Assembly (NCBI GenBank): GCA_005882985.1
Contig: VBEJ01000114.1
Coordinates: forward strand, 1-37,282
Direction of reading: 5' to 3'
Length of the DNA: 37,282 nt
Source of the DNA: Chloroflexota bacterium
Lineage (GTDB): Bacteria > Chloroflexota > Dehalococcoidia > SM23-28-2 > RBG-16-64-32
The notes beneath the pieces are model-generated. The model saw only the letters and a program-made list of their open reading frames with translations. It was not told the origin of the DNA and made no database searches. This document shows, piece after piece, positions 4,484-35,256 of this stretch; the first letter of the stretch is position 1, and the number at the start of each line of letters is the position of its first letter. The position numbers were made by a program, and so were the translations under genes.

Positions 4484-5341
4484 GTGAAGCCCCTCGAACC
4501 CGTCCTCACCCTCCACCTCTTTCCCGAAGAGGGCGCAGCGCTCCTCAAGCTCCTCGCTTCCCTCTCGGCGCCCAAGTGGGACCTGCAAACGGTCTGTTCC
4601 GGCTGGTCGGTCAAGGACATCGCGGCACACCTCCTGGCTGACGATCTCGGGCGTCTCGCCCGGGGGCGTGACGCCTACCCCCGCGCCGCGTTCGCACCTT
4701 CCAGCCCCGAAAACATCGAGGCGCAGCTCCTCGAGTTCATAAACCAGCAGAACGAATCATGGGTCGCGGCCGCGCGCCGCCTCAGTCCCCGCCTGCTCAT
4801 CGACCTCCTGCGCTGGAGCGGCGACGAAACACAGAAGTATTTCGAGTCGCTCGATATGTTCGCGATCGGCGAGCCGGTCTCATGGGCGGGCCCCGAGCCG
4901 GCGCCCGTCTGGCTCGACATCGCCCGGGAGTACACTGAGCGCTGGCTTCACCAGGCGCAGATTCGGGATGCAGCTTCGGCGCCGCTTCTGACGCAGCCCC
5001 GGCTCTTCCTACCGGTGCTCGACACCTTCGTGCGGGCCCTTCCCCATACCTTCCGCGACCTAGCGCGGCCGCACGGCACGCATGTCGTGCTTCTAATAAC
5101 GCGAATTGGCGAGACGGGCTCGGCGCCTCTGCAGTGGTCGCTGGTGCGCGAGGCGACCCGCTGGTCTCTGTTCGATTCCGCCACTTTTGAGCCGTCCGCG
5201 ACAGTGAGGATGGACGCGGACACTGCCTGGCGCCTGTTCACGAAGGGTCTGACGAAGCCCGAGGCGCTGGCGCGGACAAAGATTACGGGCGATCAAGCTC
5301 TGGGCGAGAAGATCCTCGACACCGTCTCGATCATCGCCTGA
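4484..5341 (+). CDS. Maleylpyruvate isomerase family (MDMPI/DinB-superfamily) protein
   Basis: DLQTVCSGWSVKDIAAHLLADDLGRLARGRD is typical of MDMPI N-terminal domains; GTG start at 4484 preferred over TTG at 4460, which would overlap the putative -10 box. Confidence 0.75.
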   Translation: MKPLEPVLTLHLFPEEGAALLKLLASLSAPKWDLQTVCSGWSVKDIAAHLLADDLGRLARGRDAYPRAAFAPSSPENIEAQLLEFINQQNESWVAAARRLSPRLLIDLLRWSGDETQKYFESLDMFAIGEPVSWAGPEPAPVWLDIAREYTERWLHQAQIRDAASAPLLTQPRLFLPVLDTFVRALPHTFRDLARPHGTHVVLLITRIGETGSAPLQWSLVREATRWSLFDSATFEPSATVRMDADTAWRLFTKGLTKPEALARTKITGDQALGEKILDTVSIIA

Positions 5342-6066
5342 TGCCTGACTATGCACGCGTCTACGCTCGCCAGGAGTACCTCACGCCCGGCGCCGCCGAG
5401 ACTGTGGACATAATCGCTGAGACCGTTCAGCCAACAGAGCGGTCATTGCTTCTCGATGTCGCTTGCGGCAAAGGCGAGGCCGCAGCCACGCTCGCAGGCC
5501 GTTTCGCCTGCCGCATTGCCGCGGTCGAGCTGTACGATCCATTCATCCACCATAGCGCCGCGAAGGCGTGGTTCTTCAACCTGCGCGACCTGATCACTAT
5601 CCTTCGCGGCAGCGGGCGCCGGCTGCCTGTTCGGGACGGCGTGTTTGACGCCGGCTATTGCATCGGCGGGCCATCGATCGTCGGCCTTAAGGACTGCCTG
5701 CGCGAACTGTCGCGAGTGACAAAGCGGGGTGGCCACATTATTGTCTCCGATATCGTCTGGCGGACGAAGCCGGGGACGCTTTCTGAGGATGAGTGGAAAT
5801 GGCTCGCCAGGATGGAGCCGGCCTCGCTCGACGAATACGCCGGCGTCATCGAGGCGAGCGGTCTTCGCGTAGACCGTAGGCACATGCACGAGCGCGGCGC
5901 CTGGGACGACTACTGGCGCCCGATGCTCGAGGTGGCTGAGGAAGCGATGACCTCACAGCCCGCGGACATCGGTTTCGCTGACGACATTGAGTCCGCCGTC
6001 GCATTGGAACGCCGAGCCGTCGAAAGCTATATCAACTACGCGACGTTTGTGGCTACGAAAGCATAA
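5341..6066 (+). CDS. Class I SAM-dependent methyltransferase
   Basis: LLLDVACGKGEAAATLA motif I and downstream methyltransferase pattern; start overlaps previous stop (TGATG). Confidence 0.88.
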   Translation: MPDYARVYARQEYLTPGAAETVDIIAETVQPTERSLLLDVACGKGEAAATLAGRFACRIAAVELYDPFIHHSAAKAWFFNLRDLITILRGSGRRLPVRDGVFDAGYCIGGPSIVGLKDCLRELSRVTKRGGHIIVSDIVWRTKPGTLSEDEWKWLARMEPASLDEYAGVIEASGLRVDRRHMHERGAWDDYWRPMLEVAEEAMTSQPADIGFADDIESAVALERRAVESYINYATFVATKA

Positions 6067-6075
6067 GGAGGATAT

Positions 6076-6124
6076 TATACATACAGTATGTATATAAATG
6101 GGCCAATTTTACAAAACGAACTTC
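6076..6124 (+). promoter_or_regulatory. Operator/promoter module copy A: palindrome TATACATAC-A-GTATGTATA (6076-6094) plus block CCAATTTTACAAAACGAACTTC (6103-6124)
   Basis: Same two blocks at identical spacing as the P450/tetR intergenic region (30072-30122); located between a gene end and ribE. Confidence 0.7.
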
Positions 6125-6239: not shown

Positions 6240-6821
6240 ATGTTCACCGGCATTATCGAAGAGGTTGGATCGGTGATCGAGTCCGGCGAAGGACGGCTCC
6301 GCATCGGCTGCCGGACGGTGCTCGAAGGCACTCGGGTGGGCGATTCCATTGCCATCAACGGCGTCGACCTTACCGTCGTCAAGATGGACTCACGGTCCCT
6401 CTCCTTCGATTGCATGCCTGAGACCTACCGGCGCTCGAACCTCGGTGCCCTTCAGCCGGGCGATCCCGTGAACCTCGAGCGCTCGCTCCAACCCACCAGC
6501 CGCCTTTCCGGCCACATCGTTCGCGGCGTCGTCGAGGCCACTGGCGAACTGCTGTCTCTTGCCGAGGAAGGTGACGCGACCATCGCCCGCTACCGCGTCC
6601 CGCCGGACATCCTCCGGCATACAGTCGTCAAGGGCCCGATCACCGTTGACGGCGTTTCCCTTACTGTGATCGCTAAGGATAGCGACTCCCTAACCGTCTC
6701 GCTCGTTTCTTTTACTCAGGAGCACACGAACCTGACGCAAAAGAAGCCCGGAGACACCGTCAACCTCGAGAGCGATATCATCGCCCGCTACGTGGACCAG
6801 CTTCTGAGCGAGCGAGGTTGA
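6240..6821 (+). CDS. ribE: Riboflavin synthase alpha chain
   Basis: MFTGIIEEVGSV start, two lumazine-binding repeats (GDSIAINGVDLTV; GPITVDGVSLTV), NLE..I.ARYV. Confidence 0.96.
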   Translation: MFTGIIEEVGSVIESGEGRLRIGCRTVLEGTRVGDSIAINGVDLTVVKMDSRSLSFDCMPETYRRSNLGALQPGDPVNLERSLQPTSRLSGHIVRGVVEATGELLSLAEEGDATIARYRVPPDILRHTVVKGPITVDGVSLTVIAKDSDSLTVSLVSFTQEHTNLTQKKPGDTVNLESDIIARYVDQLLSERG

Positions 6822-28122: not shown

Positions 28123-28893
28123 TTAGCCTTCGACGAAGTCAGAGAAGCTCCACGCGCCGCTGCGCCAGTGCGTGAGCCCTCTGGCGACTTCGCCTGAGCC
28201 GATCACTTCGAGGCCTAGCTCGCTCTCGCGCCGGAGCGCCGTCGCGAGGTCCGTCTCCCACTGTTCGTACACGGACCTGCGGTCGGAGCGAAGACACGCC
28301 TGCGGCAGCCGGGCGAGCGTGAGGGCAAGGCGTCGCGCTGTCTCGAGGGCCTCGCCCGGCTCGCACAGCCGGTTGACGAGGCCCATGCGTGCCGCCTCCT
28401 CCCCGCCGACGCCGCGACCGGTAAGGATCATGTCGATGGCCTGGCTCTGGCCGACGAGGCGGGGCAGGCGGACGGTGCCGCCGTCGCAGAGCGGGATGCC
28501 CCAGCGGCGACAAAAGACGCCGAAGACGGCATCACGGGCGGCCACGCGCAAGTCACACCAAAGCGCCAGTTCCAAGCCGCCTGCGACCGCGTGGCCCTCG
28601 ACAGCGGCGATCACCGGCTTCGACAGCATCGTGCGCGTCGGGCCGAGCGGCCCCGGCCCGTCCGGGCGGACGGTGATGCCCCGGCCCTCCATCATCGCCC
28701 TGAGGTCGCCCCCTGCCGAGAATTTTCCGCCGGCACCCGTGAGAATCGCGACCGATAGGTCCGGGTTTGCGTCGAACTTCTCGAACGCCTCGATCAGCCG
28801 CTCCGCCGTCTCCGCGTCAACCGCGTTGGCGACGTCCAGCCGGTCGATCGTAACAATCGCGATCGGGCCGTCGGTCTCATAGCGCACCGTCAT
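28123..28893 (-). CDS. Enoyl-CoA hydratase/isomerase family protein
   Basis: VAILTGAGGKFSAGGDLRAM...KPVIAAVEGHAVAGGLELALWCDLRVAARDAVFGVFCRRWGIPLCDGGTVRLPRLVG. Confidence 0.95.
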   Translation of the reverse strand: MTVRYETDGPIAIVTIDRLDVANAVDAETAERLIEAFEKFDANPDLSVAILTGAGGKFSAGGDLRAMMEGRGITVRPDGPGPLGPTRTMLSKPVIAAVEGHAVAGGLELALWCDLRVAARDAVFGVFCRRWGIPLCDGGTVRLPRLVGQSQAIDMILTGRGVGGEEAARMGLVNRLCEPGEALETARRLALTLARLPQACLRSDRRSVYEQWETDLATALRRESELGLEVIGSGEVARGLTHWRSGAWSFSDFVEG

Positions 28894-30071: not shown

Positions 30072-30122
30072 GAAGTTCGTTTTGTAGAATTGGGGTTGAA
30101 ATATACATACAGTATGTATATT
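30072..30122. promoter_or_regulatory. Operator/promoter module copy B between divergent P450 and tetR
   Basis: Palindrome AATATACATAC-A-GTATGTATATT (30100-30122) inside TTGAAA-N17-TATTAT (30096-30124) for tetR; minus-strand block CCAATTCTACAAAACGAACTTC (30072-30093) ends 5 bp before the P450 ATG. Confidence 0.75.
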
Positions 30123-30136
30123 ATTTGGTCGTTGCG

Positions 30137-30760
30137 ATGTCAAGGCCCGCCAAACAACAACGCTCCGAGCGGACGCGCCGCAGACTCCTCGATGCCGCGC
30201 GAGAGGTTTTCAGGCGGCACGGCTTCGCGGACGCCTCGATGGAAGAGATCGCGCAGCGCGCGGGGGTCAGCCGCGGCCCGCTCTACCACTACTTCGACAG
30301 CAAGCAGGACCTCTTCGCCGCAGTCTACGAAGAGGTCGAGCAGGCGCTGGCTGCCGAGATTGCTTCCGAGATCCAGAACCGCACCGCTGCCGAGACGGAC
30401 GCCTGGCAGCAGGTGCTTGTCTCGTCTCAGGCGTTCCTCGATGTCAGCCTGCACCCGGCCGTTCAGCGCATCGCTTTGCTCGAAGCGCCGACGGTACTCG
30501 GCTGGGAGGCCCGCGGCCACATTATGCGCTATGGCCTCGCGCTCATCCGGCGGGGCCTTCAGAACGCGATCGACCAGCGCCTGATCGAACCGCAGCCGGT
30601 CGAGCCGCTCGCCCACATCCTGCGGGCAGCGCTGAGCGAAGGGGCGCTGTACATTGCCCGCGCAAAGGACCAGGCGGCCGCCCGAGCCGAAGTCGGCGCC
30701 GCGATCGAGCGGCTGCTCGAAGGGCTGCGACAACGCCGGCAGCGCAAGTCGGGAAAATAG
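30137..30760 (+). CDS. TetR/AcrR family transcriptional regulator
   Basis: RSERTRRRLLDAAREVFRRHGFADASMEEIAQRAGVSRGPLYHYFDSKQDLFAAVYEEVE. Confidence 0.96.
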   Translation: MSRPAKQQRSERTRRRLLDAAREVFRRHGFADASMEEIAQRAGVSRGPLYHYFDSKQDLFAAVYEEVEQALAAEIASEIQNRTAAETDAWQQVLVSSQAFLDVSLHPAVQRIALLEAPTVLGWEARGHIMRYGLALIRRGLQNAIDQRLIEPQPVEPLAHILRAALSEGALYIARAKDQAAARAEVGAAIERLLEGLRQRRQRKSGK

Positions 30761-33800: not shown

Positions 33801-35256
33801 CTTCCAGCGGTGCCGCCTCCGGGAGATCAGGGAAGCGCTCGCGCACCTCGGAGACGAGCTTTGCCACTTCCGGCGCGCCGCTCCCCAGCTCGCTCAGCAG
33901 AGCCGCGTCCGCGCGGCCGCGGACGTACTGCCGGAGCGCGTCGACAAACGGCAAGTACGGCACCGTTATCTCGCCCTCGTAGCAGTGACCCGTGAGCACC
34001 TGCGCGCCGCGCAGGCTGGCGTAGACGGTGAACTCACGTGCCAGGCGGCTCTTACCGATGCCGGGCTCGCCCACGACCATGACGAGAGAGCCATGGCCCG
34101 ACAGCATCGCTTCGAGCGCCGCTTTGAGTTGCTCGATCTCGTCTCGCCGGCCGACGAAGCGCCCCCAGATGCCTGCCTGTTGGCCAGCAGCAGCGTCTGG
34201 GACCGGTTCTTGCGGCGTCGGTTGGACGTCGGCAGCGACGATGCGCTGGAGCCGGACCGCGACCGCGGACGCCGTGTCGGGCCGGTCTGCCGGCGACTTG
34301 GCCAGCAGGTGCAAGATCAGATCCTCCAGTGCACCGCGAACCTCGGGGTTGTGCCACGACGGGTCTACGGGGGCGGTATTGATGTGCTGCGAAATGACGC
34401 CCACGGCATCGTCTCCCAGGAACGGCGGTCTGCCCGTGACCATCTCGTAGAGCATGGACCCCAGGGAATAGAGGTCGGAGCGGGCGTCCGGAGTACGCCC
34501 CAGCGCCTGCTCGGGCGGCATGTAGGCGACGGTACCGACCATCATGCCGTGCGCCGTCATGCGGCTGCGGTCCAGCGCCATAGCCAGGCCGAAGTCGCCC
34601 AGCATCGCCGTCCCCTCGGCAGTAAGCCAGACGTTGCCCGGCTTGAGGTCGCGGTGGATGATGCCGTTCTTGTGCGCGTGGTCCAGCGCCAGCGACACTT
34701 GCTCGGCCGTACGTACGGCCTGGTCGACCGGCAGCCGGTGTCCTTCAGCGTTCGCGAGCTGCTCCTCCACCGAGCCGCCAGGCATATAGCGCGAGACGAT
34801 GTAGGGCTGTCCTTCGTCCTCGCCCACGTCGTGCACCACGACCACGTGCGGGTGATCGCCCAGGCGCCCCATCGCCTGCGCCTCGCGCCGCACGCGCACG
34901 AGACCGCCGGCGTCGAGACCCTCTGTCTTAATCACCGCCACCGCCACATCCCGGTCCAGCTTCGTGTCGTGCGCCAGGTAGACGCGCTTACGGCCGCCCT
35001 CGCCGAGGAAGCCCTTCACGGCGTAGCGGCCATCGGCGAACGACGCCGGCAGGGCAGGTGAAGGCGAAGGCGTGGGCGTCCGCGATAGCGGCGCATCGGC
35101 GGCAAGCGCCTGTGCGCATTCGTTGCAGAATCTGCTGCCTGGCGCGTTTGCGAATCCGCACGACGGGCACGCGAGTTCCTGCCTGAGAGCCGACGCGCAC
35201 TCGCTACAGAACTTCGCCCCTTCAGGGTTGTCGCGAGCGCAAGACGGACATTTCAT
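30814..35256 (-). CDS. Multidomain signalling protein: tandem zinc ribbons + Ser/Thr kinase + AAA/NTPase + TPRs + class III adenylate/guanylate cyclase
   Basis: CPSCARDNPEGAKFCSECA...CPSCGFANAPGSRFCNECA; HRDLKPGNVWL, DFGLA; VVGEPGIGKSRLAREF; TPR-like region; GTVTIMFSDIEGSTSMADRLGD...EGDGFMVAF...RIGLHAGEV; ATG at 35256 overlaps upstream TGA. Confidence 0.93.
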   Translation of the reverse strand: MKCPSCARDNPEGAKFCSECASALRQELACPSCGFANAPGSRFCNECAQALAADAPLSRTPTPSPSPALPASFADGRYAVKGFLGEGGRKRVYLAHDTKLDRDVAVAVIKTEGLDAGGLVRVRREAQAMGRLGDHPHVVVVHDVGEDEGQPYIVSRYMPGGSVEEQLANAEGHRLPVDQAVRTAEQVSLALDHAHKNGIIHRDLKPGNVWLTAEGTAMLGDFGLAMALDRSRMTAHGMMVGTVAYMPPEQALGRTPDARSDLYSLGSMLYEMVTGRPPFLGDDAVGVISQHINTAPVDPSWHNPEVRGALEDLILHLLAKSPADRPDTASAVAVRLQRIVAADVQPTPQEPVPDAAAGQQAGIWGRFVGRRDEIEQLKAALEAMLSGHGSLVMVVGEPGIGKSRLAREFTVYASLRGAQVLTGHCYEGEITVPYLPFVDALRQYVRGRADAALLSELGSGAPEVAKLVSEVRERFPDLPEAAPLEGEAERLRLFDSVTRFVCSVSTSEPVVLFLDDIHWADKPSLLLLQYLARNIRSDRILVLAAYRDVELDRTHPLSDVLASLRRERLFERVLLRGLPAGDVFAMISAVGQQSAGPEQPVTSEFAQAIYRETEGNPFFVEEVLKHLVEEGKLYREGGQWVRDASVEELGIPEGVREVLGRRLSRLSEPCNRMLSLASTMTGGFSFEVMLAVSREEETQLLDLLDEALQALVIRERDGAGSGIYEFNHALMRQTLYAELNTPRRVRLHRQVGEAMERVHAANLEPHLPALAHHFFQAAPGGDVDKAIDYATRAAQRALSLTAYEEAARLYDIALQSFELKGRPDESQRCQLLLSLGEAHNQAGDRDRAKEVFLHASNLARKLRDAGRLARAAIGFGGPPWAAFGASDERLVSLLEEALEAIGEDESALRARMLGRLAIDAFFSNDLSKAQEVSAEAVAVARRTGDAAGLADALWSRFCAFWNEGGDEQSAAARELTEVAERAGDTEREIWGHFTRYVVLFQAGDAPGTDREVEQFGRLAEELRRPVYYGWTLVYRAARAVAYGRYAEAERLIEEVLPLAERSQDETMIEFRILLLAQFRRDQGRLEEAESLYDELAERFAAVPAWRAPLAHLYCDMAREADARDEFERLAADGFTGVLDSVSGWSVAAVYLAETCARLDDQARAEVLYEAMLPFAGRNPMLGPLANESAVSRQLGVLATVMQRWDEAERHFEDALAMNTSMGARPGTAWTRYQYADMVLRSDANGHRKKALSLLAEALDSAQELGMKLLTQRALALKLKAQGIEGSDLLTSIDTVAKEVLAVQPDLRPHAAPDGTVTIMFSDIEGSTSMADRLGDSRFMDVLREHNAIIRDQIKAHAGFEVKSEGDGFMVAFQSARKALACASAIQKALVERNGTVDEPVRVRIGLHAGEVIKEGEDFFGRNVIMAARVASQAHGGEILASSVLKALVEGSDVSWGERRTVELKGLSGDHEIWSVNWDSQ
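30841..31320 (-). repeat. Near-identical cyclase-domain segment, copy 1
   Basis: About 8 mismatches by eye over about 480 bp against 35280-35759. Confidence 0.9.

Follow-up and report, generated by a model that had tools for sequence, protein, structure and literature searches.

Several known systems resemble the regulatory-looking module analysed below. Putative mobile promoters are reportedly the subject of Matus-Garcia et al. in 2012 ('Promoter propagation in prokaryotes') and of van Passel et al. in 2014. Both papers are cited in PMC9208149 and PMC8049555. Like the module described here, putative mobile promoters are short stretches of intergenic DNA, nearly identical to one another, that stand in front of non-homologous genes of one genome and are gained and lost between relatives. 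What sets the module apart is a perfect, operator-like palindrome and a division into two sub-classes; as a promoter it is only putative. The putative mobile promoter is the nearest known kind, and the module may provisionally be regarded as a variant of it with a built-in palindromic operator.

A local regulator of the TetR family usually has few sites, which are located near its own targets. In autoregulators of the SmeT-smeDEF type, a palindrome lies between the divergent tetR and target genes and overlaps the tetR promoter (PMC3128119). The same layout is found at one site here, but the candidate sites number 21 and are scattered. Horizontal regulatory transfer, in which the upstream regions of conserved genes are switched for non-homologous ones (PMC5890482), likewise replaces the region in front of conserved genes, whereas here a single module is repeated in front of many different genes of the same genome. 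REP/REPIN and PATE repeats, which are associated with Y1 transposases, are also dispersed intergenic palindromic units. In contrast to these, the palindrome found here is AT-rich, perfect and joined to an asymmetric block, and it shows no link to Y1 transposase genes.

Two copies of the module in the window

The window, which is the whole stretch of 37,282 nucleotides that was analysed, contains two copies of the module, both belonging to class A (see below). The first copy (6073..6124, forward strand) runs from palindrome to block, faces ribE and was aligned with 24 other copies. Its 19-bp palindrome TATACATACAGTATGTATA (6076..6094, centre 6085, without strand) is a probable homodimer-binding site and is followed by the 22-bp second block CCAATTTTACAAAACGAACTTC (6103..6124, forward strand). 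The second copy (30072..30122, reverse strand) faces a cytochrome P450 gene and consists of a 19-mer palindrome of the same kind as TATACATACAGTATGTATA (30102-30120, centre 30111, reverse strand) and the second block CCAATTCTACAAAACGAACTTC (30093-30072), which is identical to CCAATTTTACAAAACGAACTTC at 21 of 22 positions. At both sites the gap between palindrome and block is 8 nt and the distance from the palindrome centre to the block end is 39 bp. These sequences, their spacing and the 21/22 identity had been reported in an earlier note on this DNA and proved exact on re-reading. When three mismatches are allowed, palindrome and block each have exactly two matches in the window and none in 100 shuffles, and chance is no explanation for the two sites. 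No known RNA families were found in the window.

The first copy is located between a methyltransferase gene (5341..6066, forward strand), whose stop codon precedes the palindrome by 9 nt, and ribE (6240..6821, forward strand), which encodes a riboflavin synthase with two Lum_binding domains and begins 115 nt after the block. Downstream of the second copy, the P450 gene (28918..30066, reverse strand) starts 5 nt after the block and is followed by an enoyl-CoA hydratase-like gene (28123..28893, reverse strand), which was named from its sequence and whose synteny is kept in the sister genome G001. On the other side lies the gene of a TetR-family regulator of 207 amino acids with TetR_N and TetR_C_41 domains (30137..30760, forward strand), a candidate ligand of the palindrome.

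The tetR gene has a predicted sigma-70 promoter, TTGAAA-17-TATTAT (30096..30124, forward strand), which scores 10 of 12 (shuffles: mean 0.1) and whose spacer is filled by the palindrome. It is absent at the ribE site, as had been noted before. The spacer of a promoter is a classic place for the operator of an autorepressor. Since the palindrome fills the spacer of the regulator's own promoter, the TetR protein encoded at 30137 is its likeliest candidate ligand. The palindrome at 30102 is also kept in G001. As a lead, the operator oligonucleotide of SmeT, a TetR-family repressor, contains GCATGTATGTATAT (PMC3128119), which resembles one half-site of the palindrome.

In the direction of the downstream genes, no forward sigma-70 consensus was found at the ribE or P450 module. 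Near ribE, the one promoter-like match points in the opposite direction to this gene, and, the tetR promoter aside, the sigma-70-like signals of the module face backwards.

Copies in the genome and their neighbouring genes

The genome to which the window belongs (G000; the window is contig 18) comprises 2.62 Mb in 313 contigs and is 83% complete. The genome-wide scan that the earlier note had proposed was run and yielded 21 palindromes with up to three mismatches, a count that strain mixture or mis-binning may inflate by a copy or two, as the genes for PGI at two loci are 92% alike and one contig of G005 is 96% identical to G000; the reversed control gave none. Each of the 21 is accompanied by a block-like sequence at equal spacing in the in-register alignment. 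A separate search with the block (≤3 mismatches) gave ten matches, nine of them adjoining a palindrome. The two copies seen originally are thus two of at least 21.

The complete module measures 50-65 bp and is composed of a palindrome of 19-23 bp, a variable spacer of 8-9 nt and an AT-rich block with the core ACMAAACGAAYTT. Two classes can be distinguished by their ends. Class A, with ten copies including both window sites, ends in GAACTTC (ACAAAACGAACTTC), and class B, with eleven copies, ends in GAATTTAATCNGTCAAGTA (ACCAAACGAATTTAATCNGTCAAGTA). The outer limits are sharp, at about -4 on one side and, on the other, at about +49 in class A and +60 in class B. Across the alignment of the 21 genomic copies and four from relatives, conservation is strong in the palindrome and in the block, with a freely varying spacer between them, so that the notion of two separately conserved contacts, first drawn from two sites, extends to all of them. 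Terminal inverted repeats were not found at the five loci examined, where the central palindrome is the sole shared inverted repeat. Class B copies carry an invariant TTGAC which points backwards. A backward promoter through the class B palindrome, TTGACN-16-TAATTT, was considered and set aside, as only about 3 of 11 copies have a gene nearby in that direction.

According to gene calls made with a simple codon-score script rather than a full annotator, all 21 copies are intergenic, except for overlaps with two tiny doubtful ORFs. The neighbouring genes encode, besides RibE and the P450, SecA, glycyl-tRNA synthetase (glyS), RpiB, PGI (two loci), a LysA-type decarboxylase, a ferredoxin, an ABC ATPase, a thioesterase, a lipase and the ribosomal protein L3 (rplC). 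These genes are functionally unrelated, and tetR adjoins only one of the 21 copies, the one at 30102. One feature of putative mobile promoters, a near-identical intergenic sequence in front of genes that are not homologous, is found here in 21 copies.

The next gene in the palindrome-to-block direction lies on the same strand at 19 of the 21 copies, which corresponds to a binomial probability of about 1e-4 if the copies were independent, although the count takes in related copies (L018/L039 and L036/L021). One exception, L016, lies at a contig edge. For the other, L015, the gene strand was read off the ortholog in G001 (L041/L155), in which the gene ahead lies on the opposite strand; this copy (L015/L041) adjoins the 3′ end of a gene that is convergent to it.

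Distribution in relatives and origin of the copies

All genomes compared are incomplete metagenome-assembled genomes. Among 60 relatives, the palindrome with at most one mismatch was found only in G001 (two copies), G002 (one) and G005 (one), and the class B core is confined to the same three genomes. The range of the module is one genus and a neighbouring genus. Sister genomes hold at most five copies; the five of G001 include degenerate palindromes and one block without a palindrome. No match to the class B core was found in viral contigs. A scan of a genome collection gave 19 matches, of which only the one in a Chloroflexi soil MAG (CF_22) looks real. The others are mostly from low-GC genomes, look like chance and were discarded. 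One contig of G005 (C158, locus L153) is 96% identical to G000, whereas other G005 loci are far more diverged, which may reflect transfer or mis-binning.

The copy between tetR and P450 is common to G000 and G001, at the same position of an orthologous gap, and is older than most copies. The module likewise stands before radA in G001 and G002. A macrodomain gene has it in front in G005 and also in G001, there with a degenerate palindrome. At these three places the module is old. At other loci, comparison with orthologous sites points to recent gain, namely at PGI, rpiB, prs-secA and glyS. The gap at PGI is short and lacks the module in G001, G002 and G005. At rpiB, the 5′ end of the gene is present twice in G000, as two 165-bp copies that enclose the module, and once in G001 and G002. 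At prs-secA and glyS, insertions bearing the module are flanked by direct repeats of 110-136 bp, and the prs 3′ end and the glyS 5′ region, each single in G002, are present twice in G000. With no more than five copies in any sister genome, and with the module missing there from several orthologous places, it can be stated that the module multiplied to at least 21 copies in the G000 lineage and that most G000 copies are lineage-specific.

The direct repeats which flank the insertions are about 105-165 bp long, 81-85% identical and present as a single copy in relatives, and they are unusually long for target-site duplications. Counted from the palindrome, they are located at -197..-35 and 77..241 in L035, at -1199..-1064 and 185..318 in L011, and at -2057..-1948 and 184..292 in L036.

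Several copies are accompanied by pieces of radA, P450 or an 'HGLTA' gene, the identification of these fragments resting partly on reading of the sequence. The radA upstream region, from -88 to about +180, is common to L036 and L021. L021 continues into a decayed, frameshifted N-terminal radA fragment; an intact radA lies behind the module in G001 and G002. In L013, the module is followed by about 160 bp of a decayed P450 5′ end (5050-5212) and then by lysA. After the module of L011, L016, L019 and L037, pieces of the 'HGLTA' gene were found. They belong to a repetitive gene family with the motif 'SSRNAxxHGL' (L161, 817-1458), which has no match in Pfam or NCBIfam. Furthermore, a LysM-type gene and lysA lie on one stretch in G002 (L143), and in G000 each adjoins a module on a different contig (L013/L014), which suggests a rearrangement through module copies. 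Another contig (G000:C216, L195 605-751) carries a decayed C-terminal tetR fragment together with a stretch matching window positions 34783-35172, and appears to be a broken duplicate of the window's region.

In related copies, the core tends to be better conserved than the flanks that were copied along. Between L013 and the copy at 30102, 49 of 52 core positions and 99 of 153 flank positions are identical (Fisher p 1.2e-5), and between L036 and the radA copy of G002 the values are 62/64 and 112/144 (p 3.8e-4). Other related pairs show the same tendency, at lower significance or not significantly. In the orthologous tetR-P450 gap, G000 and G001 agree at 39 of 53 core positions and at 459 of 543 flank positions, which makes the core, if anything, the less conserved part (p 0.051). 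Taken together, these comparisons hint that copies of the core evolve in concert within a genome, either by re-copying or by co-evolution with the protein that binds them.

Proposed function of the module and alternative explanations

We favour, at a probability of roughly 0.55, the explanation that the window sites are copies of a dispersed operator/promoter module, similar to a mobile promoter, which places unrelated genes under one regulator. The palindrome would be the putative site of a homodimeric regulator, for which the TetR protein at 30137 is the best candidate, and the module would drive the gene downstream of it, even though a forward sigma-70 consensus is absent. The module is old at the tetR-P450 gap, radA and the macrodomain gene and has multiplied in the G000 lineage, and each copying to a new place would bring a further gene, ribE among them, under the same control. 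The close TetR ortholog (90% identical) was found only in G001; in G002 and G005, which possess the module and are 72-73% complete, none was found. A more far-reaching version of this explanation is tentative and rather improbable. In this version, a TetR operator-promoter turned into a self-spreading cassette and rewired some 20 housekeeping genes under one repressor, with the copies evolving in concert with that repressor. The genes so rewired would span secretion, tRNA charging, central carbon metabolism and flavin synthesis within one species.

The sites could also be small non-autonomous mobile repeats (REP-, MITE- or PATE-like) or integration or recombination sites without regulatory role, spread by a transposase or recombinase whose binding ends would be the palindrome and the block. 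The sharply unequal copy number (21 in G000, at most 5 in sister genomes), the sharp outer limits and the position of copies inside insertions flanked by long direct repeats are consistent with this, as is a gene resembling that of a REP-associated tyrosine transposase (L012 4726-5373), which lies some 440 bp away from the module copy of L012. This alternative is possible, yet doubtful when compared with the regulatory module, given the strong orientation bias toward genes and a spacer that varies while both blocks hold, unlike in a freshly copied repeat. A MITE was rejected on account of the missing terminal inverted repeats, only the central palindrome being present at the five loci examined. 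Mobilisation by RAYT is not supported either, as one RAYT-like gene lies near one copy and RAYT-like genes elsewhere occur without the module: REP-type transposases are present in most module-free relatives, copy number does not track them, and the others of G000 lie on contigs without a module. As a further alternative, the operator could belong to some global stress regulator such as LexA instead of this TetR. This was considered because radA natively carries the module in two relatives, and the presence of the module before the macrodomain gene of G001 and G005 fits as well. The alternative is unlikely, and a LexA box was rejected, as no such palindrome occurs upstream of lexA in any of four genomes (best 6-8 mismatches) and the lexA upstream region of G002 and G005 carries CGAACRTATGCTC instead. 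In its own right, CGAACRTATGCTC is a candidate LexA box upstream of lexA in these two family genomes (L212, L215).

The earlier note had proposed from the two window sites that P450 and ribE are under the specific control of the TetR at 30137, which would tie flavin supply to the P450 pathway. The module shared exactly by both sites, the divergent tetR-P450 arrangement kept in G001 and the overlap of the tetR promoter with the palindrome agree with this proposal. A dedicated link of this kind is nevertheless not supported and seems the least probable of the explanations, since at least 19 further copies precede unrelated genes, tetR adjoins a single copy, and the module has no other tie to flavin or P450 genes. 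In the 9 relatives whose ribE upstream region was read, out of 11 other members of the family or order, neither the module nor any conserved element was found there, the closest sister genomes being without ribE contigs; in most of the 11, the conserved neighbour of ribE lies downstream. The note had also named occurrence at many unrelated intergenic sites as a plain repeat as an outcome that would speak against the link. This outcome was largely borne out by the many unrelated sites; the term 'plain repeat' does not fit entirely, as conservation is higher in the core than in the flanks copied along with it.

Whether the modules are active or silent, the 21 copies caution that a regulatory circuit of two genes should not be inferred on the strength of two sites that match. 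If they are silent, they would represent a new genus-restricted small repeat with unusually long flanking duplications. If they are active, this genome would be a snapshot of a spreading regulatory module, with dated copies (derived from radA, P450 and HGLTA) and empty sites in sister species, and the origin of new regulons would become directly testable.
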